Of a DNA stretch of 56,798 nucleotides, positions 3,001 through 36,395 are shown in pieces. The stretch is from contig JAJEHX010000024.1 of assembly GCA_022823465.1 (NCBI GenBank), positions 1 through 56,798 of the forward strand, given 5' to 3'. The stretch is from Candidatus Latescibacterota bacterium. GTDB lineage: Bacteria > JAAXHH01. Below the pieces are notes generated by a model that saw nothing but the letters and a program-made list of their open reading frames with translations, was not told the origin of the DNA and made no database searches. Position numbers and translations under genes: made by a program. The number at the start of each line of letters is the position of its first letter. Position 1 is the stretch's first letter.

Positions 3001-5732
3001 AGGTTGAGAAACATCTCGTCGTCGCTCATCTCGTCGGCTGCCAACTGATCGTCACGTGGATATCCGGGCAGCAGGTGGGCGATCGGTTCAGGGCGCGGGT
3101 ACTGTGCGGCGAAGTCCAGCTCCACCCCATTCCTGAATAGCGCACCAAGCGTCTCGTGGAAACCCAGGCAGACATCGGAGTCGCGCATGAGCGACGGAAT
3201 GCAGGCTGCTCCGGCCGCTTCCTGAGCACTGCCTTCCGAGCACTGTGCTATGGTGGGTTGCAGGGCGCTGTGCGGCGCGATCTCCAGCACGATGTCGGGT
3301 CTGTAATCCCGCATGATGGTTTCCATCGCCGCGGCGAACCGCACGGGCTGCCGGATGTTCGACCACCAGTAGGCGCTGTCCAGCCGCTCCGTCTGCTCGC
3401 CGGTCACCGAGGAAACGAGTGGCACGTCGGCGTCGAAGTTGCAATCGTCCAGGAAGGACAGGGCCGCCAGTGCGTCGTCTTTTATCGGATCCATGGCGCT
3501 GGAATGGAAGGCGATGTTGCCTGGAATCAATAGATTCTGCAGATTGCGTCGATCCAACTCTTCTATGACAGGCTGTAAAGCGCTCTTCTTGCCGCAGATG
3601 ACGGTGCTGGCCGGCGCATTCTCACAGGCAATCTCAACCTGCGATTTCCGATCGCTTTCGAGCCGAAAGGGGACCTGCAACCCGTCGAGAAGTTCCTCCA
3701 GGCCCTGCCGGTCGAGGCCGATTGCCAGCATGCGGCCGGAGCCTGCCCTGCGCTGCTGCAATGTGGCGCGATGATAAACCAGGTGCGTCGCCTCCGCCAG
3801 GGAAAGCGCTCCGCAGGCGTAGGCGGCGGCTACCTCTCCGGAGCTATGGCCGACGACGCAGTCCGGATAGACGCCCCAGGTCTTGAACAATTCGACGAGG
3901 GCGCACTGGATCATGAAGATGGCGGGCTGGGCCAGTTGAACCTCGTTGAGCGCCTCCTGGGGGGCTGAGAAACAGGCCTCGCGCAACGAAATGTCGGAAT
4001 GCTCCCGCCAGTGTTCCTCGATGGTATCGACAACGCGGCGGAAAACCGGGTCGGCGTCGTAGAGGGCGCGACCGCAACCGGCCCACTGCGTGCCTTGGCC
4101 GGAAAATACCATAGCGATCCGCCGCTCGCCCTCATCGACGGTGGCGGTGGGGGTTGGATCTTCGGCAAATTCCTTTAGCTCCTCAATCAGTTCCTGTTGG
4201 GTGCGCACGGCAAAGGAGGTGCGTGCGGCGAAGTGGGTGCGGCGACGGCTGAGATTGCCGGCCAGCGCGTAGAGGTCAAGCTCCTGCTCAGCGAGAGCTT
4301 CTCCCAGCTGTTGCGCGCTTTTTTCCAGCGTGCCGGACGTGCGCGCCGATAGGGGAATCATGAAGCCTGCGGTAGGTGCCGGCGGCATCGACCAGACCCG
4401 GGGTTGCTCGGGACGGTATTCGCGCACCACGCAGTGCCCGTTGGCCCCGCCAAAGCCGAAGGAGTTGATACCGACCACCACCGGGTGATCGGGAAACGGT
4501 TCGCAGTCGGTCTGCACCTGCATCGGGCAACTTTCGAAGTCGATCTCCGGATTCGGCACCAGGTAGTTTTTCGACACCGGTGCGAAGGTGCGCCGCTGCA
4601 TCATCAATACGACCTTGAGCAGTGAGCAGGAAAACGCGGCGGCCTCCATATGCCCCACGTTGCTTTTCACACCCGAAACCCGCAGCGGCTCGTCCCGCTC
4701 GACGCCACCGAACGCTTCGGAGATGGCGTTGCCCTCGATGCGGTCGCCCACGACCGTGCCGGTGGCATGGGCTTCGATATAGTCGAACTCCTGGGGCTTG
4801 CGGCCCGCGCGAGCGCTGGCTTCGCGCATCAATTCCACCTGGGCGTGACGCGTGGGCGCGGTGATGTACCGTCCCTGCGCCAGGCCTGCGCTGCCGTCGG
4901 CGGCGCCGGCCGAATTGACGGCTGTAGCCTCCACCACGGCATGGATGGGATCCCCGTCCCGTTCGGCCGCGGCCAGGGGTTTGAGCGCGAAGACGAAGGC
5001 TCCTTCCGAGCGCATGTACCCATTGGCTTCCGCGTCGAAGGAGTGGCACTTCCCGTCCGGACTGATGACGCCCAACGCATTGAATCCGGTGCTGAGCCGG
5101 GCCGAACCGAGGAAAATGGCCGATCCGAGAAAGGCCTGTTCGCAGTCGCCGGAGTGCAGTGCGTTGATCGCGGTGTGCAACGCCGTCAGGCTGGCGGAAC
5201 AAGCCGTGCAACAGGCGAGCGACGGCCCCATCAAGTTGAAGTGGTAGGAGATCCGGTTGGCCAGCATGGCCACGCTGATACTGGCTATAGAAAACTCGGT
5301 TGCCCCCATCGGCCTGCGCCAGTTGGACGTCGCTGGAACCTGCGCGCCGATGAACACGCCCGTGCGGCTGTTGCGCAACGATTGCAGGTCCCAGCCGACC
5401 CGCTCGCAGGTCTCCCACGTGCAGGTCAGCAGCATCCGCACATGGGGGTCGGCCGACAGCATTTCGTGGTGCGACATCCCGAAAAGACTGCGATCGAAGC
5501 GCTTTTCCTCCTCCTCCCGGATCAGCCCTTCATACGCGCTGGCGAAACGTCCCGGGCCGGAGAATTCGCCGATCGGCCGGTAGCCTCTGCCGAAGCGGTC
5601 GGTTATCGGCTCCCGGACGATTTCGCGTTCGCTGAGCAGCTTCCAGAAGTCGTCGTCGGTGCGGATTCCACCCGGCATGCGATAGGCGTATCCGACGATG
5701 GCGACTGGATCTGCGGATCTGGAAGTTTTCAT
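1..5732 (-). CDS. Type I polyketide synthase, KS-AT-DH-pseudoMT-pseudoKR-ER, partial and frameshifted
   Basis: Large cytoplasmic megasynthase that should build a reduced polyketide or branched fatty-acid chain. In order: ketosynthase (about 8-430; Cys177 in CTACSASL, His in HATGT and VGH), acyltransferase (about 540-870; Ser629 in GHSSGE; IAFH resembles the malonyl-type HAFH), dehydratase (about 910-1190; His945, with the usual Gly of HxxxGxxxxP replaced by His; second motif LLDGGLQ), a degenerate methyltransferase-like part, a KR structural-subdomain-like part (TVVTRRA...RLVDLD), then an enoylreductase. The reading frame stops at 627, but the ER continues without stops in another frame from about 645 to base 1 (HSAMGGVG NADPH motif), so the gene runs off the left edge; KR and ACP would be expected beyond. 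Start ATG at 5732 follows GAGGAG about 11 nt away. Strong as a PKS; product unknown. Confidence 0.93.
627..645 (-). other. Single-base frameshift inside the PKS enoylreductase
   Basis: Reading 5' to 3' on the minus strand the frame goes GDAVRACRVR then stop. Removing one base (the G at 632 on the plus strand) restores RVGDAVAFTQGG and a continuous enoylreductase to the window edge. This is either a sequencing or assembly error or a real one-base insertion that would truncate the protein inside the ER. Confidence 0.85.
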
Positions 5733-6016
5733 TCTGCGGAAATCTCCTCGACGACAAGTACGTAAAAGCCTTCCAAAAATCCCGGAATTAAACTGTACTC
5801 GCCTGCACGTCGCTCATACGTGGCCGAGAGTCGACCACTATGAGCATGTGCACGGAACGCAATCGGGATTTCGAAAAGGCTTCTCAGGGTGAGGAAACCG
5901 CCTGGACAGGCCTCTCAGGGTTTTCCCCAAACGCAGGCTCATGCCATGCATGTGCAACAACTACACAATGCACGCGTATCTATTCAGAACCGGTATGTAG
6001 AACGCACATCCCGATA

Positions 6017-6722: not shown

Positions 6723-7070
6723 AAGCGGGAGGTCGATTACTTAACTTTCGACCATCACCTGGACGGTTACTCAATTCATCGGGTTTTCTAAAGACTGGGG
6801 TAGCATAATGGATCTGTCCAGTAAATAAAGCACAAATTCGACCTCAAGTCATGAGCTAACTATGATTTTATTGTGATACCCGTTCAGGGATGTAACGGTG
6901 CGGTTGCTCAGGTATTCAGATCGGTGATGCCGGTGGGTGCGGATGGGCAAGACGATGCGACGCGTGGGCACGGCTGGGCGGGACGGGGCGATGCAAAGGG
7001 TGGGCAGCAACGCATGGACGACGCGTGGGCGAGGCGAGGCGTGCGCGAGGAGAAGTAATGCGTGCGCGCG
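6723..7070. other. Intergenic region with degenerate GC-rich repeats
   Basis: No gene seen. The part near 6940-7045 contains several degenerate copies of a GTGGGC-containing unit mixed with GACGCG and GATGC words, at irregular spacing of roughly 22-35 bp. It lies just 3' of the citrate synthase stop and upstream of the STAS gene; the AT-richer part at 6780-6880 may hold the promoter of the STAS operon, but no convincing -35/-10 pair was found. Confidence 0.4.
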
Positions 7071-8312
7071 CTACCGCTCGCCGATAGGCATCCACCGTCT
7101 GACATGGTCACCCGTGTATACAGATTCCGGCCGGAACAGCCGGTCGACGGCGCGCTGTTCAAAGCAGTGGGCTGCCCAGCCGGCTACGCGTCCTATGGCG
7201 AACATGGGCGTGAAGAGATCGGGATGGAGACCGAGGCCGTTGAGGAGCAGGGCGGTATAGAACTCGACGTTGGTTTGCAGGCGCCTGCCGGGCTTGTATT
7301 CTTCGAGGAGTTCGACGGCGGTTTTCTCGACGTGCAGGGCGAGGGTGTACAGGGCGTGATCCCGGGCGAAGAATGAACGCGCGGCCCGAGAAAGTACATC
7401 GGCCCGCGGGTCGCGAACGCGATACACCGCGTGTCCGAAACCCATGAGCCGTTCCCCCGATTCGAGCTTTTGACGAAGGTAGGATTCGGCGTTATCGGTG
7501 TCGCCGATCGCTTCGAGCATGGACAGGACCGGTCCCGGCGCCCCGCCGTGCAGAGGTCCCTTGAGTGCGCCGATGGCGCCCGTAACAGCCGAGACGAAGT
7601 CGGAACGCGTGGAGACGATGACGCGGGCAGTAAACGTGGAAGCATTCATGCCATGGTCGATCACCGTGTTGAGGTAGGTCGTGAGTGCGCGCACGCGGTC
7701 TCCGCTGCTGTCATCGCCGTCGCTGTCGCCGCCAGGATCGCCGTCGCCACGGTTGTCATCGCCGTCGCCGCCACCAGGGTTGTCGTCGCGGTCGCCGTCG
7801 TCGCCACCAAGGCTGTCACCGCCGTCGCCGCCACGGTCGCCGGGGACTTCACCGGTCAGCATGTACAGCAGGTTGGCGACGTGACCAAGGCCAGAGTCGG
7901 GATCCACCGGTTCTTCGCCCTGGAGAAGGCGCCAGTAGGCTGCCACGACGGTCGGCAGGCCAGCCACAAGGCCCCGGGCATCGGCGTTGTCGTCCCGGGT
8001 GGGAAGGGATGCAGCAGCCGCGCGGACGGCATCGATAACAGGGCGCCGCTCCCTGGCGGCGTTTCGCAGGATGTCGAGCGAGGCGCCGGGGATCCTTCGG
8101 CAGCCGGCCAGTTCCCGTTTGAACCGGCGCAACTCTTCCATGTCGGGCAGCCTCCCACGCCAGAGCAGGTGGACGGTCTCTTCAAAAGAGGCTCTTTCCG
8201 CGTATTCCTGGAGCGGGTATCCCGCGATGACCAGTTCACCGGCCTCGCCATCTACACTGCTGAGCCGCGTCTCCGCGGCAATGACGTCCTTTAGTCCGGG
8301 TGAATATGACAT
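7071..8312 (-). CDS. gltA: Citrate synthase with acidic low-complexity insertion
   Basis: Condenses acetyl-CoA and oxaloacetate to citrate at the entry of the TCA cycle (a methylcitrate role cannot be excluded). At 413 residues it is longer than the usual ~370 of this class because of an insertion at about residues 157-205 made almost only of Gly, Asp, Ser, Asn and Arg. Family motifs are intact: DHGMNASTFTARV, GPLHGGAP, and GFGHAVYRVRDPRAD with the catalytic His and Asp. The insertion falls between LTGEVP and VRALTTYL, in the loop before the first active-site His. ATG at 8312 follows AGGGAG. The gene lies 42 nt downstream of leuB and is probably co-transcribed with it; a second, HTH-fused citrate synthase is divergent 1.5 kb away. 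Confidence 0.93.
   Translation of the reverse strand: MSYSPGLKDVIAAETRLSSVDGEAGELVIAGYPLQEYAERASFEETVHLLWRGRLPDMEELRRFKRELAGCRRIPGASLDILRNAARERRPVIDAVRAAAASLPTRDDNADARGLVAGLPTVVAAYWRLLQGEEPVDPDSGLGHVANLLYMLTGEVPGDRGGDGGDSLGGDDGDRDDNPGGGDGDDNRGDGDPGGDSDGDDSSGDRVRALTTYLNTVIDHGMNASTFTARVIVSTRSDFVSAVTGAIGALKGPLHGGAPGPVLSMLEAIGDTDNAESYLRQKLESGERLMGFGHAVYRVRDPRADVLSRAARSFFARDHALYTLALHVEKTAVELLEEYKPGRRLQTNVEFYTALLLNGLGLHPDLFTPMFAIGRVAGWAAHCFEQRAVDRLFRPESVYTGDHVRRWMPIGER
7698..7844 (-). repeat. Gly/Asp-coding low-complexity insertion in citrate synthase
   Basis: About 147 bp (49 codons) of imperfect trinucleotide and hexanucleotide repeats (GGCGAC/GGTGAC type on the coding strand) inside the citrate synthase gene. 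It is bounded on both sides by Gly-Asp-Arg codons (VPGDRGG ... SSGDRVRA), as if an ancestral GEVPGDRVRALT had been expanded at that point. Repeat purity is highest in the middle, consistent with slipped-strand growth. Confidence 0.8.
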
Positions 8313-22152: not shown

Positions 22153-22169
22153 TTTTGAGATGGGTTCAT
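22153..22169 (+). repeat. 17-bp direct repeat, left copy
   Basis: TTTTGAGATGGGTTCAT, identical to 23316-23332. The two copies bracket the APH-like kinase gene; the offset between copies is 1163 bp. Confidence 0.85.
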
Positions 22170-22225
22170 TACAGAAGACATCCAGGCCAGGATGCATCAG
22201 TGAACAGACAGGAGCGCGGGATAGA

Positions 22226-23221
22226 ATGACAGAGGGAAAGGAACTGATGACGTTTCCGTTAGGCATGGCCGCGAGTGCCTACGGATTCTCACACATCGAG
22301 TTCATAGGATGGGCAGGAGGCATCTCATCGAAGAATGCGCTCGTCAGTGCAGGTGGATCCGACTTCGTGCTGAAGAGATTCCGTGGCGACTCCACGAAAG
22401 TCGATCGGATCGAAAGGGTCACCTCCCTCCTGCTGGGGAAAGGACTTCCGGTCATCGAAGCCATGATTTCAAGAGACGGCAAGCGACATTTCTTCTTCGA
22501 TGGTCACTTCTATGCGCTCTACCGAAGAGCGAAGGGGTTGATCCTTCACAGGGGTGGACTTGGAAAGAAGCATCTTGAGAACGCCGCTCTCCTGCTAAGT
22601 CAGATACACGGCATCAAGGGAAACGGCGGACTCAATCTCGAGTCCAGTCACCAGAGAGTTCCCTCGCTTGCCAATGCCATCAAGGTTCTGGAAGCAGCGT
22701 GCGACAAAGTGGCTTCTGGGAGGACCGATATTTCTAGATTGATACGCTCACTTACGGATTTGAAGAGATCGGTGCTATCGCAACTGGAAGAGGAGGGGGT
22801 GAGCCCCCCCAAACCTTGCTCACTGATACACGGGGACTACCACAACGAGAACCTATTGTTCCGGACAGATGGCAAGGTAGACTGCGTTCTGGACTTTGAG
22901 CACGTTCGTAACGGAGCGGCGTTCGAGGACGTCGTGACCTTCCTCAACCTTGCCTGTCTCGGTAGGAACTTCGATCAGGAAAGCCTGGAGAGTGGCCGCG
23001 AGTTTGTGAGGGCATACAGGAGGTTGCGCGAGCTAACGACAGATGACCTTGTCTGGGGCTTTAGATGGCATCTTCGGGACGTGTGTAGTTCTGCCTTTCT
23101 CGAAAGGGCTGCCGCGAGAGAACGGGAAAATCTGGGACTCATAGAAATGCTCGAACGGGACATTGTTCGGATCGACCGCCTGGCAAGTAGTCACGTAGAG
23201 ATCGCTGAGGCAATAAGCTGA
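22226..23221 (+). CDS. APH-fold phosphotransferase
   Basis: 331 residues, homoserine-kinase/choline-kinase/APH-type fold. ATP-binding Lys in FVLKRFRGD, catalytic loop HGDYHNENLL, metal-binding Asp in VLDFEHVRNG. Start taken as ATG 22226 (MTEGKEL) behind AGGAG; an ATG at 22160 in the same frame is part of the 17-bp repeat. Substrate unknown. The gene separates the racemase and DUF3830 genes, is flanked by 17-bp direct repeats and appears less GC-rich than its surroundings, so it may be a later insertion. Confidence 0.8.
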   Translation: MTEGKELMTFPLGMAASAYGFSHIEFIGWAGGISSKNALVSAGGSDFVLKRFRGDSTKVDRIERVTSLLLGKGLPVIEAMISRDGKRHFFFDGHFYALYRRAKGLILHRGGLGKKHLENAALLLSQIHGIKGNGGLNLESSHQRVPSLANAIKVLEAACDKVASGRTDISRLIRSLTDLKRSVLSQLEEEGVSPPKPCSLIHGDYHNENLLFRTDGKVDCVLDFEHVRNGAAFEDVVTFLNLACLGRNFDQESLESGREFVRAYRRLRELTTDDLVWGFRWHLRDVCSSAFLERAAARERENLGLIEMLERDIVRIDRLASSHVEIAEAIS

Positions 23222-25970: not shown

Positions 25971-27632
25971 CTACGCGCGCCCCGGTTGCCAGACATCCCT
26001 GATCCATTTGTTCCAGCGACGTGCGAGATCCAGCCGGGATGCGCGGAGTTCGTCGGAATAGAACGGTTCACCATGCCTGTAAGGAGGCGTCAGTTCCAGT
26101 CGATGACCCGTTATCGCTTCCAGGGCACCCCTCCGGACTCCAAAGCTCGAAATACGATTCGCGAGGGCATCCTCCTCCAGGCCGGCCAGGATCGCACCGG
26201 TCATTCGCGGGTCCGCCATCTGTACAGCGAGCTGGAGGGCCGCGTAGCGGACGTCCGGGTTCGTATCGTTGAAGAGGTCCGGTAACGCCGTGGCACATTT
26301 GGACCATAGATCCGAATGATTGCGCAGCAGATATATGACGGCGGTGCGGACGAAGGGAGAAACGTCCCGGCAAGCTTCGATGATCTCGGAAGCGTTTACC
26401 GGAGAGGTTCCCATGGCAAGGGCGCACAGCGCAGCGGCGCGGATGCGGGGATCCGGATGTCGCAAACACGTCCGGAAGGGTATAAATACGTCGTCCGGCA
26501 GCGCTTGCTCATCGCCAACGAAAGAGAGGATAGCCGCTATAACGTGTTCAGGATCGCTGTCTTCCAGCATCCCCAGTCTGGACGCTACGGATAGCGAGCG
26601 TAACACGGACCAGGGCTGGCGGGGCCAGATTACATGGTCACGCCGGGCTGCCGATGGCTTCGAGTCCAGTGCGGTCCGGACCGAAACGAGACCGGCGCGC
26701 AGGTCGGCCCATCCCGGCTGTTGCATGGACGATTCGATGAGGGCCGACTTCATTTCCAAGCCCGTCCATTCGGGTCGTGCCTGCCAAAGACAGGCCGCGG
26801 CGCCGAGGACCATCGGTCCGGCGAACGAGGTGCCGTGTAGTCGCGCGTATCGACGGGGCAGGCCGTCGATCTTAGCATAGTAGTGGTGCTCGACCTCTTC
26901 GTCGGTTCCATGCGGCAGCACGACGTTTTCGGCCGGCGCAAGGATTTCCGGTACCCACTTCCCTTCGAAAGTCGTTCCCCGGCATCCGGGAAAAACTTCC
27001 GCGCTTCCGGGGTCTCCGTTCGATGGAATCACGACGCCGCCGACGGAAAGAACGGAAGGAGCCGCTGCTTCTGCCATAGCGGCCGTTCGGTCAGGCGTGT
27101 TTCCCGAACCGGATACGACAAGAACACCCTCGGACGCGATTTCCTCGCACAATACCCTGACCGGGTCCGACTGCCAGGGTAGAAGACTTGCGTCTATAAC
27201 GCCTCTTCTTGCCGATAAAACCCCCCGAATCTCGTACTTCCGCCAGTTGTCCCGGATCCATTCCAGTGACCTGAGATGCGCTTCATCTCTTTTTTCCGGT
27301 TGCCGGCTCTGTCCGGGAAAATACCGGGCAACGAGAAAGAGATCGGCGTCGTGCGCCAGACCCTTGTACAGCCCGCAGGATTCCGAGCCGGAACCCGCCG
27401 CGGCCGCCGCAGCCCAGAGCCCATGGGCGCCGCCCTTCCACGGCGCGGGTTCCGCGGTGAATTCCTTCGGTTCAGGATCGGGATCCATCACCATTACTTT
27501 ATATGTAGTACGGTGTTGGTTCGTAGAGATGTCGGGGTGACTCGGGAAATCGCCGTCGACTACGGCGATACGGACCCCTTTTCCTGTTAACTCATCGGGT
27601 ACATTCAGGAAATCCCGCAATGCTGGCCACAT
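25971..27632 (-). CDS. Subtilisin-like (S8) protease with C-terminal HEAT-like repeats
   Basis: 553 residues. Catalytic triad and oxyanion Asn fit S8: Asp26 (AVVDGDFPSHPD), His70 (GAHGLWAAAAAAGSG), Asn178 (VSGSGN), Ser269 (HGTSFAGPM). The His motif is HGLWAA rather than HGTHVAG. After about residue 350 come helical, HEAT-like segments (HPDPRIRAAALCALAMG, SPFVRTAVIYLLRNH, NPDVRYAALQLAVQM), likely a protein-binding or regulatory module. There is no signal peptide or propeptide at the ATG (MWPALRDFLN; AGGAGG 5 nt upstream), so it seems intracellular. Divergent from an ECF sigma gene; a regulated protease is an inference. Confidence 0.85.
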   Translation of the reverse strand: MWPALRDFLNVPDELTGKGVRIAVVDGDFPSHPDISTNQHRTTYKVMVMDPDPEPKEFTAEPAPWKGGAHGLWAAAAAAGSGSESCGLYKGLAHDADLFLVARYFPGQSRQPEKRDEAHLRSLEWIRDNWRKYEIRGVLSARRGVIDASLLPWQSDPVRVLCEEIASEGVLVVSGSGNTPDRTAAMAEAAAPSVLSVGGVVIPSNGDPGSAEVFPGCRGTTFEGKWVPEILAPAENVVLPHGTDEEVEHHYYAKIDGLPRRYARLHGTSFAGPMVLGAAACLWQARPEWTGLEMKSALIESSMQQPGWADLRAGLVSVRTALDSKPSAARRDHVIWPRQPWSVLRSLSVASRLGMLEDSDPEHVIAAILSFVGDEQALPDDVFIPFRTCLRHPDPRIRAAALCALAMGTSPVNASEIIEACRDVSPFVRTAVIYLLRNHSDLWSKCATALPDLFNDTNPDVRYAALQLAVQMADPRMTGAILAGLEEDALANRISSFGVRRGALEAITGHRLELTPPYRHGEPFYSDELRASRLDLARRWNKWIRDVWQPGRA

Positions 27633-27958
27633 ATACCCTCCTTCCGGTATCTTTTACAGTGGGTTGATTCAGTCACAACAGCATGATCGCCACATACGCT
27701 CTGTATTGACCTGTCTGGATGGGTTTTGGGTTCGTCCGGATGGAATTGGTTCTTTTTCAAACGGTTCCTCATCGTGGATCGTCGTAATTAGTAGATCGAC
27801 CCGGGTGATTGCATGTTGCGGTATCAATAGTCATTGTACGCGGATCAAGTTAATAGGAAAACCGCCATCCGCGGCAGACTGCCCCACGCGGCAGATCGTC
27901 ATAAGCATAAGAACTGCTCTGGGTTCATTTGCTCACAGTTTGATGATCGGATAAGCCT
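27633..27958. other. Divergent intergenic region, S8 protease / ECF sigma
   Basis: 326 bp without a gene on either strand. It must hold promoters for both flanking genes. I see no clear sigma-70 consensus pair and no strong repeat; the stretch around 27755-27850 is the most AT-rich part. Confidence 0.4.
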
Positions 27959-28471
27959 ATGACCGTTGGAGACCTTTATGAAACGTATGCCCCCCAACTA
28001 ACGAAATACGCTCGACATCTGACCGCGGACATGGACAACGCGGACGATCTGCTACAGGAAACGTTCATGCGGGCCATGAGAAACCTGAGTCTGCTCAAAT
28101 CGCTGTCACCCCACAAGAGACGTGCCTGGCTGTTCAGGACCATGGGCAATCTGTTCGTAGACAAACAACGCGCCCGACGGAGAGAAAGGGCATTCCTCGG
28201 GACATTACATCAAATACTACAGGAGGAGTCGATTCGCAAAACCGCTGGATGGAGGTCTGATACGGTTTCGCATATTTTCGAAACCATCAGCATACCCGAG
28301 ATTATGAGGTACATACCGAAGAAAGATCACGATCTTTTTCATATGCGTTTCGTAACGGGGATGACCAGCGAGGAAATCGCCACGCGTACAGGGATTCCGG
28401 CTTCGACGGTCCGTTACCGCCTTCATGTCGCCATCAGGAGACTGCGTGCACAAAAATCCCGATTCGCCTGA
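27959..28471 (+). CDS. RNA polymerase ECF-type sigma factor
   Basis: 170 residues. Region 2 (about 5-70): LYETYAPQLTKYARHLTADMDNADDLLQETFMR, with the DNA-melting helix KRRAWLFRTMGNLFVDKQR. Region 4 (about 115-165): IPEIMRYIPKKDHDLFHMRF, TGMTSEEIATRTGIPASTVRYRL, the HTH for the -35 element. No anti-sigma gene is adjacent; instead a repeat protein follows 95 nt downstream and an S8 protease is divergent. A protease beside a sigma factor may act in its control, but this is inference. ATG 27959 has only a weak ribosome binding site. Confidence 0.9.
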   Translation: MTVGDLYETYAPQLTKYARHLTADMDNADDLLQETFMRAMRNLSLLKSLSPHKRRAWLFRTMGNLFVDKQRARRRERAFLGTLHQILQEESIRKTAGWRSDTVSHIFETISIPEIMRYIPKKDHDLFHMRFVTGMTSEEIATRTGIPASTVRYRLHVAIRRLRAQKSRFA

Positions 28472-28565
28472 CGAAGCGACGGCTTAAAATCCCAATCACA
28501 CATGCCAAGGCACCACAGTTAAATGTTCCCGTTTTCGGATGCATTCTTAAGGACAGGAGGAAACA

Positions 28566-29828
28566 ATGAAACTCGAAGACCGCGCCCCCCGTTCGGTTCG
28601 AATCAATTGCGCCAACCTGGACATGCGGGAAACCACGGAACGGGTGGCGTCCAGGATCTTGCGCGTCAACGCCGGCAACGTGATGGTTACGCCGGAAACC
28701 AGAGACTTTCTGTCGATGTTTTCCAGTAACACGGGAAACCTGATCGAAGTTTCCAAGAAGGCCAGGCTGAAGACGGTTTTGTCGGATGAAATCATGGGCC
28801 GGGATGCGTTTACGGGTGAAGTAGAACCGTTTCTTGTCCTGAACATAAGCAACATCACGCTGGAACCGGATGTCACCGCAGAGGGAGTGGAAGGATCATG
28901 GCATGAAATCATTAACATGGGAACCATACTGTATCCTGAGCACGTGGCCGGACCGATCACGAACAAACTGACGGCGAATATGGGCGCACTTACGCCGTAC
29001 AGGACCTCCGCACGGCTCATTAAAGGGGACGTTATACTGGACGAAATCTTTCTGGCGTCGCTGGACGATGACGCAGACCTGGCCGTCACGGGGAATCTCA
29101 GGGTCGTGGAGCCCGTCCCGAACGACATGCTCGGCCGGAAGATCAATACGGTGCTCGTCAGGGGCGCTGTCTTCTGTCGTGCGGAGAACGTCAGCATGCT
29201 TCGTTCCAAATATGATCCCAAGGCCGTTACTCCGGAGACGATCGTCGTACCGGATGAACATGCACTGGTCGAACGCGACCTTTCGCTGACCGCCGGAAGC
29301 ATCCGGTCGTGGAAGGGGCGGAAGATCTACTCGACCGGCAACGTCACCATTCATGAGGACATTGACGCAGACGCGTTGGACAAAGCGCTCGACTGCCTCG
29401 TCTGCACGGGCACGGTCCTGTGCCCGGAACCGCTGAGCGAAGTCTTTTCGGGCGCATGCGATACATTGAGCACCGATGTCATCTTCTACAGCGGCACCCT
29501 CTGGGTCGTGGAGACCGATCTCACGCTGCGCAAGTCCCGTCTGGATCTGATCGACGGCACCTCCACATTGTGCAACTCGGGAAACGTGACCATCGAAGAA
29601 GACGTGGACGCCGGTATCCTGTATGACCGCCTGGCCGCAGTTTACAACTGGGGTACGATAACCTGCCTTCCAGATCAGATGAGCGCGGTCGAAGCAAGGA
29701 TGGCCGTCAATGAAGGGACGTTACACGAAGCAAGCGAACAAGAGGAAAGTGACGAAGAGAAGCAGGGAGAGCATGAAGAACACGACGACGGAACACTCAC
29801 GATCAACGCCGGGAACTACAAGCTATAG
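28566..29828 (+). CDS. Uncharacterised protein of five ~80-residue beta-rich repeats
   Basis: 420 residues, not recognised. Five copies of a ~80-residue repeat start near residues 13, 92, 174, 256 and 337 (spacing 79, 82, 82, 81). The first half of each unit follows a pattern like SGNVTIEEDVDA..L...L..V.NWGTI.CP: compare 256-298 and 337-379, which align almost gap-free. The second half carries further G-[NT]-L strands. The last unit is cut short and contains an acidic insert (about 388-408, EQEESDEEKQGEHEEHDDG) before a final TLTINAGNYKL. A beta-solenoid or bactofilin-like scaffold is plausible. No signal peptide or TM segment. ATG 28566 has a strong AGGAGG. Probably in one operon with the ECF sigma gene. 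Confidence 0.8.
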   Translation: MKLEDRAPRSVRINCANLDMRETTERVASRILRVNAGNVMVTPETRDFLSMFSSNTGNLIEVSKKARLKTVLSDEIMGRDAFTGEVEPFLVLNISNITLEPDVTAEGVEGSWHEIINMGTILYPEHVAGPITNKLTANMGALTPYRTSARLIKGDVILDEIFLASLDDDADLAVTGNLRVVEPVPNDMLGRKINTVLVRGAVFCRAENVSMLRSKYDPKAVTPETIVVPDEHALVERDLSLTAGSIRSWKGRKIYSTGNVTIHEDIDADALDKALDCLVCTGTVLCPEPLSEVFSGACDTLSTDVIFYSGTLWVVETDLTLRKSRLDLIDGTSTLCNSGNVTIEEDVDAGILYDRLAAVYNWGTITCLPDQMSAVEARMAVNEGTLHEASEQEESDEEKQGEHEEHDDGTLTINAGNYKL

Positions 29829-29979: not shown

Positions 29980-32385
29980 ATGTTCAAGAACTACCTGACC
30001 GTCATCTTGAGAAACCTGCTCGGGCAGAAGGGCATTTCGGCGATCAACGTGCTGGGCCTGGCCATTGGCATAGCCAGTTGCATTCTGATCATGCTCTATG
30101 TGCAGGACGAGCTCAGCTACGATCAGCACCATGAGAAGAAAGACAGGATTTACCGCGTAGCGATTTCCACATCCGACACCGCGGGCAAGACCGATGAATG
30201 GGCGATGACGCCTCCGCCCTGGGCCCCGGTACTGGCGATGGAATATCCCGAAATCGAGCATTTCACCCGACTTAAGCCGCCGAACTCCCGCTGGCTCATT
30301 CGTTACGGCGATAAACGGTCATACGAGAAGTACTTCGTTTTTGCGGATTCGTCGGTCTTTGACATTTTCACCATTCCTCTCGTTCAGGGCAATGCGAAAA
30401 CGGCCCTGGCCGAACCTCACGCCGTAGTGGTTTCAGAAACCATGGTCAAGAAGTTCTTCGGAGATGAAAACCCGATCGGGAAGGTGATTGCCGGAGATGA
30501 CAAATACATGTTCACGGTTACGGGGATCATGCGGGATATGCCGAAGAACTCGCATTTCCACGCGGATTTTCTGGCCTCCTTTGCCACCCTGCCGGCGACG
30601 GGCATATACTTCGTCCCGACCACGATGCAGAACCTGAACTCCTCTATGTATACCTATCTCCTGCTTAAGGACGGATATGCAGCCGGCGATCTGGAGGAGA
30701 AATTGCCTCAGTTTCTTGACAAGTACGTCGGCGAACAACTCAAATCAGTCGGCGCCGAAATGAGACCCTACCTGCAATCGCTCACCGATATCCACCTTTA
30801 TTCGAATCTGAAGAACGAAATCGAAGCGAACAGCGATATCCGGTACGTTTACATCTTCTCCTCGCTGGCCGCTTTCATATTACTCCTTGCCTGCTTCAAT
30901 TTCATGAACATTTCCACCGCCCGCGCCGCCCGCCGGGCGCAGGAGGTCGGCATTCGAAAGGTACTGGGCGCCCGCCGGGTCCAGCTGATCAGGCAGTTTA
31001 TCGGCGAGTCGGTCTTCTTCTCTTTTGTCGCGCTGGCCGTGGCGCTGGGACTAGTCCACTTGCTTCTGCCGCAGTTCAACCAGTTGTCCGGCAAAGTGCT
31101 GGAGATGGATTACGAATCAGCCTGGTTGCTTCCCGCCCTGGCAGCCATTGCATTGTTTACGGGGCTAGCTGCCGGCGGGTACCCCCCATTCATCCTCGCA
31201 TCCTTCAAGCCGGCGGCGGTGGTGAGCGGCGCGTTGAAAGCCGGCGTTTCCCAATCGATGCTAAGAAAGGCGCTGATCACCTTCCAGTTCATCGTCTCGA
31301 TCATCATGATCATCGGAACCGTTGTCGTGCTCGATCAAGTGGCGTACATGCAGGGCAAGAAACTGGGCTTCGACAAAGAACACCTGATCGTCATACGGCT
31401 TCCCGATCAGGCGGCCGTGCTCGGCTATCCTGCCTACAAGCGCGAGGTCACGCAGTTTCCTGAAATCGTAAACGTGAGTTTGTCGGCCAGTGTACCCGGT
31501 ACGGCAACCTCTCTCATGCGGATTCAACCCGAAGGATACCCTGAGGATCAGACGCCCCTGGTCTCCACGATTTGGGCGGACTTCGACTACGTGGAAACGC
31601 TGGATGTCGAGATCAAATCCGGCCGCACGTTCTCGCGGGCGTTTACCTCGGACAACAACGCTGTTGTGATCAATGAAACCGCCGCGCGAACCTTCGGATG
31701 GGAAGATCCGATCGGTAAAACCTTCAGGTATCCGGGCGCATCCGATACCGATCCATCCAAAAACGTCATTGGCGTCATGGCGGATTTCCACAACCAGTCG
31801 CTGCATCAACGCATCGAGCCATTGATTGTAATGTACTGGGGCGAAGGCAGGTTTATGGTTGTCAGGCTGCAGGGTCAGAACCTTCCCCGCGGACTTGATA
31901 TCCTCCAGGTACAGTGGCGGGAAACGTATCCGAACCATCCCGCCATGGACTACTACTTCCTCGACCAGGACCTCGAGCGACAGTACGCCGCCGAACAGAG
32001 GCTGGGGGCCGTCTTCATCGCCGGCGCGGTGCTTTCCATTCTGATCGCGTGCCTGGGACTTGTGGGACTGGCGTCCTACATGGCGGAACAGCGGACCAGG
32101 GAGATTGGCGTGCGCAAGGTCCTCGGCGCCACGGTTTCGAACGTTATCCTGCTGCTGTCGAAGGAATTCACCAGGCTGTTCCTGCTTGCGTTCGTTATTG
32201 GCGCTCCGGTGGGATACTATATCATGCTGGGATGGCTGGAGAACTTCCCGTATCGCATCGAAATGAGTATGTGGGTTTGCGTATTCGCCGGCCTTTCGGC
32301 GCTTATCATTACCTGGCTGACGGTAGGATACCACGCGCTGAAGGCCGCCACGACCAACCCCGTCGACGCGGTGCGGTCCGGGTGA
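29980..32385 (+). CDS. FtsX/MacB-type ABC transporter permease
   Basis: 801 residues, duplicated FtsX arrangement of the FCB-group type. TM1 about 20-42 (ISAINVLGLAIGIASCILIMLYV), then a MacB-like extracytoplasmic domain (about 45-280), three TM segments in the first FtsX domain (starting YIFSSLAAFILLLACFNFMNISTARA...EVGIRKVLGARR), a second extracytoplasmic domain (about 450-660), and a C-terminal FtsX domain with REIGVRKVLGATVSNVI. No ATPase gene is adjacent, which is common for this family. Substrate unknown (lipoprotein, peptide or antibiotic export are known roles). A second, antiparallel paralogue lies at 36.5-38.9 kb. Confidence 0.88.
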   Translation: MFKNYLTVILRNLLGQKGISAINVLGLAIGIASCILIMLYVQDELSYDQHHEKKDRIYRVAISTSDTAGKTDEWAMTPPPWAPVLAMEYPEIEHFTRLKPPNSRWLIRYGDKRSYEKYFVFADSSVFDIFTIPLVQGNAKTALAEPHAVVVSETMVKKFFGDENPIGKVIAGDDKYMFTVTGIMRDMPKNSHFHADFLASFATLPATGIYFVPTTMQNLNSSMYTYLLLKDGYAAGDLEEKLPQFLDKYVGEQLKSVGAEMRPYLQSLTDIHLYSNLKNEIEANSDIRYVYIFSSLAAFILLLACFNFMNISTARAARRAQEVGIRKVLGARRVQLIRQFIGESVFFSFVALAVALGLVHLLLPQFNQLSGKVLEMDYESAWLLPALAAIALFTGLAAGGYPPFILASFKPAAVVSGALKAGVSQSMLRKALITFQFIVSIIMIIGTVVVLDQVAYMQGKKLGFDKEHLIVIRLPDQAAVLGYPAYKREVTQFPEIVNVSLSASVPGTATSLMRIQPEGYPEDQTPLVSTIWADFDYVETLDVEIKSGRTFSRAFTSDNNAVVINETAARTFGWEDPIGKTFRYPGASDTDPSKNVIGVMADFHNQSLHQRIEPLIVMYWGEGRFMVVRLQGQNLPRGLDILQVQWRETYPNHPAMDYYFLDQDLERQYAAEQRLGAVFIAGAVLSILIACLGLVGLASYMAEQRTREIGVRKVLGATVSNVILLLSKEFTRLFLLAFVIGAPVGYYIMLGWLENFPYRIEMSMWVCVFAGLSALIITWLTVGYHALKAATTNPVDAVRSG

Positions 32386-33069: not shown

Positions 33070-33981
33070 ATGACCATTTCAGAGTTATTTAAAGACGACA
33101 GTGCATTAGCAGAACGCATACGGCGCGCCTTTGACCTCGGCAGTTCCGCGCTCCCACTCCAAAGAATAGGTACAGGCTTCAAAAGCGTTGTGCTGGGAAG
33201 CCCCTCCGGCCTGGTTTTCCGGATAGCGCTGAACGAGAAGGCTCAAACAGGGCATAGAAGGGAGTGTTATATCCTTTCAAAGCTCCAGTCTCTGCTTCCC
33301 GTTGAGGTGCCGGAAGTCCTGGGTTACTGCGAGGCCTCGGAAGATTTCCCATTTGGCGTCATGATGCAGAAGAAAATCGAAGGACCGAACCTGGGTTCAG
33401 TTCTCAAGCAATCACGAAGAATCCAGCCTGTCGCGGGTGTGACCGGGGAGTTGATTCTGGCCATTCAATCGATCAAACCGAACGATCTGCCGGGACTGAC
33501 TTCAGCCGAGACTCCCCGACCTGAGGAAACATGGTCGTACGCGCATTCCTACCTGAAAGCGGCTCTTACACCCCGCGAACTGTGCAAGGCAGAAGACTGG
33601 TGGGAGCGGTACTGCCAGGACCTGGAAAGGGGTTTTGTGGATCACCGGTTTTATCACGGTGACCTGTGGCATGCACACATCATACTCGACCCGGTAAATG
33701 AAACACGGGTCGCCGGGGTCATTGACTGGGAATACGCGGGATTTGGTGATCCTATTGTTGATTTCATACCCCAGATGCGCCTAGGTCACGCATATATGAC
33801 CTATGTACTTGAAGCATACCAGGCGAAGGGGGGTGAATTCGGTCCCGATGCCGTCACGTGGATTGAACTGCACTACCCCTACAGAGAACTCGGAGGACTG
33901 TGCTATTGCCTGGAGACCGGCGATGAGCGTGAAGCACAGTTCTGTTTAGAGAAGTTCAGGACCGTGCTGAGTCCCGGCTGA
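33070..33981 (+). CDS. APH-fold phosphotransferase
   Basis: 303 residues. Gly-rich loop and ATP Lys region GTGFKSVVLGSPSGLVFRIALNEK, catalytic loop YHGDLWHAHIIL and metal-binding VIDWEYAGFGDPIVDF. The Asn of HGDxxxxN is His, a variant seen in some APH subfamilies. Similar to macrolide or other small-molecule kinases; substrate unknown. It precedes an MFS exporter gene, separated by a strong hairpin; together they could form a modify-and-export pair. Start ATG 33070, without a clear ribosome binding site. Confidence 0.8.
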   Translation: MTISELFKDDSALAERIRRAFDLGSSALPLQRIGTGFKSVVLGSPSGLVFRIALNEKAQTGHRRECYILSKLQSLLPVEVPEVLGYCEASEDFPFGVMMQKKIEGPNLGSVLKQSRRIQPVAGVTGELILAIQSIKPNDLPGLTSAETPRPEETWSYAHSYLKAALTPRELCKAEDWWERYCQDLERGFVDHRFYHGDLWHAHIILDPVNETRVAGVIDWEYAGFGDPIVDFIPQMRLGHAYMTYVLEAYQAKGGEFGPDAVTWIELHYPYRELGGLCYCLETGDEREAQFCLEKFRTVLSPG

Positions 33982-35447: not shown

Positions 35448-36395
35448 GTGACAACCCGGGATGTTGAAAACCTGCTCTTCAGCCTTGGACTGGACCATGG
35501 GCGGATCCATCCCATCATCGGCGGCTGGGCTTACTGGACATTCGAAGTCAAACTGGATGGCGGGGATGAGCAGGTCGAGTCCTTCAAGCTCGGCGAGTGC
35601 CACAACCCCGGCTGGATCTTTCGTTTTCCCAGGAATAGGGTTGTCGCAGAAAACCTGCAGAAAGAGCAGGCGGTACTGCCCGTGGTTGCCCCACGGGTCG
35701 ACTTCGCCGTACCGCGTTTCGAACACGCGGGAATTTGGAACGGCCAGCCCTATGCGGGATACCGACGGATTCCCGGCCGACCCCTGTCGGACCGCCAATT
35801 TGCCAATTGCGACCTGGCCGGTGAAACGGCCGGTTCCATAGCGGCGGCGCTTTCCTCACTGCATGATATACCCACGTCGCTAGTCGCCGACGCATGCGCC
35901 GTGGAACCCACGGTCGATGCATGGCGGCAGCGGTACCGCGCGCTGAGGGAAACCGTCCGTACCAGGGTATCGCCCTTACTGGACTCACGCACGCTCGACG
36001 CTGTAGAACGCGAATTCGAACGGTTTCTTCAGGAGGAACTCGCGACGCTGAAAGATGTCGCCCTAGTGCACTGCGACCTGGGCTGCGAGCATATCCTGAT
36101 CGGCGACGACGGGACGACCGTGAGCGGACTGATCGATTTCGAAGACGTGACCATCGGCGATCCGACGATCGATTTCGTCGGAATCTTCGTCACCTTTGGC
36201 ATGGAGGCCGTTGAAAGGATGCGAGCCTGCTACAGCCGCGAATTGGACGCCAATTTCGAGCGCAGGTTGCATTTCTACACCTGGATGGCTTCCTGTCACG
36301 AGATCATCTACGGATTGGAGGTAGGAAGAGCGGATCTCGTAGAGGATGGTGTAGAAGGGTTAAGAACAAGGCTCGGCAACGCCGGGTTGTTGTAA
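35448..36395 (+). CDS. APH-fold phosphotransferase
   Basis: 315 residues from GTG 35448. Catalytic loop VHCDLGCEHILIGDD and metal-binding LIDFEDVTIGDPTIDF identify the aminoglycoside phosphotransferase fold of the subtype with His at the Asn position (HxDLxxxHI). The frame stays open and protein-like upstream (DIDPLAPNHWQVKDRLIIQYP, reaching to 35376) without ATG, GTG or TTG, so the annotated start may be wrong, a non-standard start used, or the true 5' end damaged. Follows the MFS gene by 82 nt. Substrate unknown. Confidence 0.78.
   Translation: MTTRDVENLLFSLGLDHGRIHPIIGGWAYWTFEVKLDGGDEQVESFKLGECHNPGWIFRFPRNRVVAENLQKEQAVLPVVAPRVDFAVPRFEHAGIWNGQPYAGYRRIPGRPLSDRQFANCDLAGETAGSIAAALSSLHDIPTSLVADACAVEPTVDAWRQRYRALRETVRTRVSPLLDSRTLDAVEREFERFLQEELATLKDVALVHCDLGCEHILIGDDGTTVSGLIDFEDVTIGDPTIDFVGIFVTFGMEAVERMRACYSRELDANFERRLHFYTWMASCHEIIYGLEVGRADLVEDGVEGLRTRLGNAGLL

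Follow-up and report, generated by a model that had tools for sequence, protein, structure and literature searches.

ECF sigma factors that are co-encoded with an anti-sigma factor, typified by the SigW/RsiW system of Bacillus subtilis, share a characteristic organization, with a small sigma factor consisting of two regions, a downstream partner in the same operon, a bipartite promoter with AAC at the −35 and CGT at the −10 position, and autoregulation. Most classical anti-sigma factors have a transmembrane segment. A review recognizes 157 ECF groups, of which 102 lack mechanistic insight, and also notes groups whose conserved neighbors are unknown (PMC8103513).

The locus described here is part of a 56,798-nucleotide contig from a Candidatus Latescibacterota bacterium (the window). 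It resembles the SigW/RsiW type in comprising a two-region sigma factor, a downstream partner, an AAC/CGT promoter and autoregulation, the latter predicted from sequence, but the partner is a repeat protein of ~400 residues without a predicted membrane segment or anti-sigma domain. We regard the system as a variation on ECF regulation in which the partner is unusual. Literature searches retrieved no description of this sigma-repeat protein pair, and the sigma lineage may already be numbered among the published ECF groups. Our preferred reading, to which we assign a probability of roughly 55%, casts the repeat protein as a soluble regulator in the cytoplasm that adjusts the activity of an autoregulated ECF sigma factor, with the two genes representing one regulatory module. 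The principal features are the following:

27758 to 27785, forward strand: putative ECF promoter for autoregulation, CAAACGGTT-N13-CGTCGT, lying 173 bp upstream of the start codon of the sigma gene (genus alignment; AAC-N17-CGT spacing in other lineages; only strict match in the genome)
27959 to 28471, forward strand: ECF sigma factor gene, 170 aa, regions 2 and 4 (Pfam; partner-sigma clade)
28566 to 29828, forward strand: gene for the repeat protein paired with the sigma factor, 420 aa, a predicted cytoplasmic β-β-α solenoid (ORF call, self-comparison, AlphaFold, charge and hydropathy)

Repeat architecture, family identity, and predicted fold

The initial annotation described five units of an ~82-residue repeat, and this repeat is real: ungapped self-comparison of the protein yielded top offsets of 163 (score 92), 81 (67), 82 (51), and 244 (51), far above the shuffled controls (n = 60; mean maximum, 32.6; SD, 5.1; highest, 49). 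The five units start near residues 9, 87, 170, 251, and 332, with a spacing of 78 to 83 residues. The segments 256–298 and 337–379, initially called nearly superimposable, are clearly related, but with 14 of 43 positions identical (33%), that wording was too strong. The units and the C-terminal region, all on the forward strand, map as follows:

28590 to 28823: repeat unit 0 (residues 9–86), the most divergent unit, with the family-conserved N-x-x-x-L-D motif
28824 to 29072: repeat unit 1 (residues 87–169), from self-comparison
29073 to 29315: repeat unit 2 (residues 170–250), from self-comparison
29316 to 29558: repeat unit 3 (residues 251–331), containing Cys286, nearly invariant in the family
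29559 to 29738: repeat unit 4 (residues 332–391), truncated; the corresponding unit in relatives is the best match to the C-terminal part of RHH_8
29739 to 29825: acidic linker of varying length, followed by the conserved C-terminal end INAGNYKL (residues 413–420), from family comparison

AlphaFold modeling of the full protein, based on two sequences, gave a low overall pLDDT of 57, with values of ~75–90 over most of residues 140–280, and for this reason, two units (residues 88–250) were folded separately, with units 3 and 4 aligned to them in the repeat register. The resulting model has a pLDDT of 84.8 and a pTM of 0.73. In this model, a coil runs through a strand, a turn at N/G, a short strand, and a helix, and each 82-residue unit consists of two such β-β-α coils and a longer third segment. 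Thus, the proposed β-solenoid is borne out insofar as a solenoid is predicted with good local confidence, but it is not a pure β-solenoid because the coils carry a helix. LRR proteins, including L domains and the FNIP/FGxxFN types (PMC9525666), similarly consist of coils of about 22–26 residues with a β strand and a helix, and LRR folds occur among the weak Foldseek matches of the repeat protein, but their E values exceed 0.1 and their TM-scores do not reach 0.3; furthermore, the coils of the repeat protein contain a second strand, and neither a Pfam LRR match, in the window protein and the relatives scanned, nor a significant Foldseek match was obtained. Overall, Foldseek searches of the models against the PDB and viral models returned nothing at E = 0.001 or better, which may reflect either novelty of the fold or insufficient detail in the model for a match.

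Searches of Pfam, NCBIfam, PHROGs, PADLOC, and the PDB sequences yielded no match to the window protein, and the family profiles retrieved nothing from the PDB. The claim that the repeat belongs to no known family therefore stands for every library searched, in all of which the repeat family is unnamed. The absence of a PADLOC match leaves no sign of a defense system, and a mobile-element protein is rejected as far as phages, plasmids, and viral contigs show, none of which yielded relatives.

Bactofilins are cytoplasmic, β-rich repeat proteins. The window protein is likewise β-rich, repetitive, and predicted to be cytoplasmic, but contains helices in its coils, shows no sign of polymerization, and, together with the relatives scanned, gave no match to the bactofilin profile at E values up to 1–10. 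The repeat proteins are strongly acidic (net charge of −6 to −32 among the members tested), and no membrane segment is predicted in any member tested, the highest 19-residue Kyte-Doolittle mean being 0.91–1.71. The initial suggestion of a filament or scaffold made under sigma control finds no support in an acidic protein that lacks a predicted membrane segment, a sign of export or polymerization, and a bactofilin match.

A lead, rather than membership in a family, comes from RHH_8 (PF17723), ribbon-helix-helix regulators with a match in Methanocaldococcus jannaschii. The C-terminal half of this Pfam profile matches several relatives of the window protein over about 45 residues, equivalent to one coil pair; the match is above the cut-off in three genomes (G666, G752, and G761), just above it in a fourth (G324), and absent in the window protein. 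Such matches raise the possibility of a co-regulatory function, in which the repeat protein would act with the sigma factor on DNA or polymerase, its coils representing a regulatory domain, as may also be the case in the RHH_8 regulators. We consider this unlikely: the matches span profile positions 32–119, mostly 65–119, and never reach the N-terminus, so that the DNA-binding, ribbon-helix-helix half is matched in no family member; RHH_8 accommodates about one unit compared with five here; and the repeat protein, besides being strongly acidic, has no RHH_8 match in the window itself.

Distribution and co-inheritance with an ECF sigma lineage

In the genus of the window, the repeat protein is present in 9 of 12 genomes, with relatives 80–84% identical and one at 56%. 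A profile of the genus copies retrieved a full-length homolog from an unrelated genome, G270 (E = 5.6e-33), and the extended profile identified two further homologs in the phylum of G270, 10 among 400 genomes from one class of Bacillota, which was sampled because the center genome carries Spo0A_C, and two more in a sample of 399 genomes from that phylum. The family is sparse, given these frequencies of 10/400 and 2/399 and the single unrelated genome among the relatives covered by a further search. Single-sequence matches at E values of 0.05–0.5 in unrelated genomes proved to be noise when read. The diverged full-length relatives come from Bacillota and a third phylum-level group and are 21–26% identical to the window protein. 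Twelve columns of the alignment, most of them Gly or Asn, are invariant across the groups, and nearly all members end with the motif N-x-x-x-x-x-[LI]. Cys286, the sole cysteine in G752 and G761, is retained in nearly all lineages. In a sister genus (G012, L022, about 3400–3980), a frameshifted and truncated copy of the repeat gene, not preceded by a sigma gene within the stretch read, resembles a module in decay.

The window sigma factor contains only Sigma-70 regions 2 (Sigma70_r2, E = 1.7e-14, residues 6–75) and 4 (Sigma70_r4, E = 1.4e-9, residues 113–164 of 170) and conforms to the ECF size of about 170–190 residues, which confirms the ECF sigma gene initially placed upstream of the repeat gene, at a gap of 94 bp. 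The link between the two genes is far stronger than could be gleaned from the window alone. An ECF sigma gene is located directly upstream of the repeat gene, on the same strand, in all 23 full-length loci read, nine from the genus of the window and 14 from G270, G324, G290, G531, G600, G641, G666, G744, G752, G761, G764, G800, G873, and G957; in this count, the sigma gene of G290 is frameshifted in the assembly, that of G800 is cut by the contig end, and the repeat gene of G764 is divided between two contigs, of which that with the N-terminal piece carries the sigma gene. The two genes overlap or are separated by up to about 15 bp in most Bacillota, by 94–108 bp in the window's genus, and by about 220 bp in G270. 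The other neighbors vary between loci.

Phylogenetic analysis traced this association to one sigma lineage. In the first sigma tree, 14 partner sigma factors formed a single clade (support 100/99) to the exclusion of 40 other ECF sigma factors from the same genomes, although these 40 were chosen from the stronger Sigma70_r2 matches rather than comprising all ECF sigma factors of the genomes, such that a sigma relative without a repeat protein could have been missed. After the addition of G873 and G957, the 16 partner sigma factors lay on one side of a branch with support of 96/88, recovered in 97% of the bootstrap trees. The repeat-protein tree contains the same main groups as the sigma tree. 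Together, these phylogenies show that the sigma factor and the repeat protein make up one co-inherited module in at least three distant bacterial groups. Adjacency within one genus would by itself be compatible with unrelated neighbors brought together by chance or shared transfer, but the matching clades across three phylum-level groups and the adjacency in 23 of 23 loci make this explanation highly improbable, and the trees refute it in practice. The obligate 1:1 pairing with one sigma lineage also fits a regulator better than a structural product.

A different arrangement is found in G637 (L073, about 4700–5970), where a partial repeat protein of 233 residues is encoded upstream of, and overlapping, a sigma gene of another lineage, which falls outside the partner-sigma clade. 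The reversed gene order and the short form possibly define a second subfamily.

Putative promoter, predicted targets, and the proposed role of the repeat protein

The 94-bp gap between the two genes (28472–28565), where the initial annotation suggested looking for a promoter, contains no sigma-motif site; the conserved site precedes the sigma gene. In the genus alignment of the region before the sigma gene, CAAACGGTTCCTCATCGTGGATCGTCGT is a strongly conserved block, except in the most diverged species. The AAC-N17-CGT spacing recurs upstream of the sigma gene in G752, G744, G531, G761, G600, G666, G324, G270, G290, G873, and G957, with a weak instance in G002 and none in G641; such a site has a chance probability of 3–11% per region tested. 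Beyond the six fixed positions, the sites agree in ACTTT, T or C before CGT, and TAT after it. Thus, nearly all lineages carry sequence evidence of a bipartite AAC/CGT promoter upstream of the ECF operon itself, and the conserved site strongly suggests that the sigma factor transcribes its own operon, such that, in the window, the promoter at 27758–27785 drives the sigma gene and the repeat gene together. The leader between promoter and sigma gene (27786–27958) and its genus counterparts vary in length and contain short GC-rich elements (ACCCGCGGC...), with several repeats in some relatives.

The strict genus motif occurs once per genome in seven genomes of the genus, always at the module locus, and one-mismatch promoter-like sites elsewhere are found at near the control rate. 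Among five one-mismatch sites read, only that in G290 (C114) is followed by a plausible gene start, at a distance of 36 bp, for a 92-residue protein. In G873 (L184), a near-identical promoter copy precedes two ABC exporter half-transporter genes adjoining the module; the promoter-containing stretch of ~48 nt is duplicated almost letter for letter (2698 and 4559), which suggests that copying of the promoter brought a new target under sigma control. Further sigma targets seem to be few and species-specific.

This promoter distribution has to be weighed against the main rival explanation, in which the repeat protein would be the chief product under sigma control, a cytoplasmic scaffold or protective protein whose synthesis the autoregulated sigma factor switches on; this corresponds to the initial suggestion minus the filament. 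With the strict promoter present in the genus only before this operon, the repeat protein would be the sole product besides the sigma factor, and an obligate output gene would give the same neighborhood and promoter. We regard this alternative as a serious but rather doubtful one: sigma targets usually drift between phyla, yet the repeat gene stays with its sigma factor, other targets seem to be present in other species, and neither an export signal nor a known scaffold family was found.

A regulatory role of the repeat protein is favored because of its obligate pairing with the sigma factor, its acidity, the lack of a predicted membrane segment and of a known anti-sigma factor, and the variability of the other neighbors; neither the window protein nor any relative scanned matched an anti-sigma domain of Pfam or NCBIfam. 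Apart from the output argument, the evidence that runs counter to a regulator consists of the reversed order with a sigma factor of another lineage in G637, the missing motif in G641, and the remnant in G012, sigma-less in the stretch read. From the balance of these observations, we infer that the repeat protein acts on or binds the sigma factor. Under the regulatory scheme, the repeat protein would fold as a β-β-α solenoid in the cytoplasm and bind the sigma factor or its complex with RNA polymerase, releasing or assisting it upon an internal signal. This signal might be sensed through the nearly invariant Cys286, a speculative candidate for the sensing residue. The repeat protein would thus occupy the role of the membrane anti-sigma factor in classical ECF systems.

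More tentatively, the module could represent a class of ECF systems whose membrane anti-sigma factor is replaced by a soluble solenoid repeat protein from an unnamed family, possibly with a new fold, such that the sigma factor reads a cytoplasmic signal, with the module and the promoter code common to at least three distant groups. With its partner defined, its promoter code predicted and, in one genome, an exporter as a candidate target, the module makes the control of an ECF sigma factor without a membrane anti-sigma factor directly testable in a Bacillota host. It also brings to attention a repeat family nameless in the libraries searched, whose predicted coil lacks a significant match among solved structures.

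Genes surrounding the module

A MacB/FtsX permease gene (MacB_PCD/FtsX; 29980–32385, forward strand, in the window) directly follows the module in only six of the nine genus genomes and was accordingly rejected as a third module gene; it is missing from this position in the other three, although G011 seems to retain a remnant of it. The divergent upstream gene in the window (25971–27632, reverse strand) encodes a subtilase fused to HEAT repeats. In G270 (L035), a truncated second sigma ORF containing region 2 only (6942–7208, reverse strand) immediately precedes the intact sigma gene, and a membrane protein encoded downstream of the repeat gene (4034–4915, reverse strand) resembles, by eye, DUF2807/GIN-domain proteins. 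Two APH-type phosphotransferase genes (22160–23221 and 33070–33981) flank the region in the window, and the ORF at 35448–36395 is also similar, by eye, to APH-type phosphotransferases.
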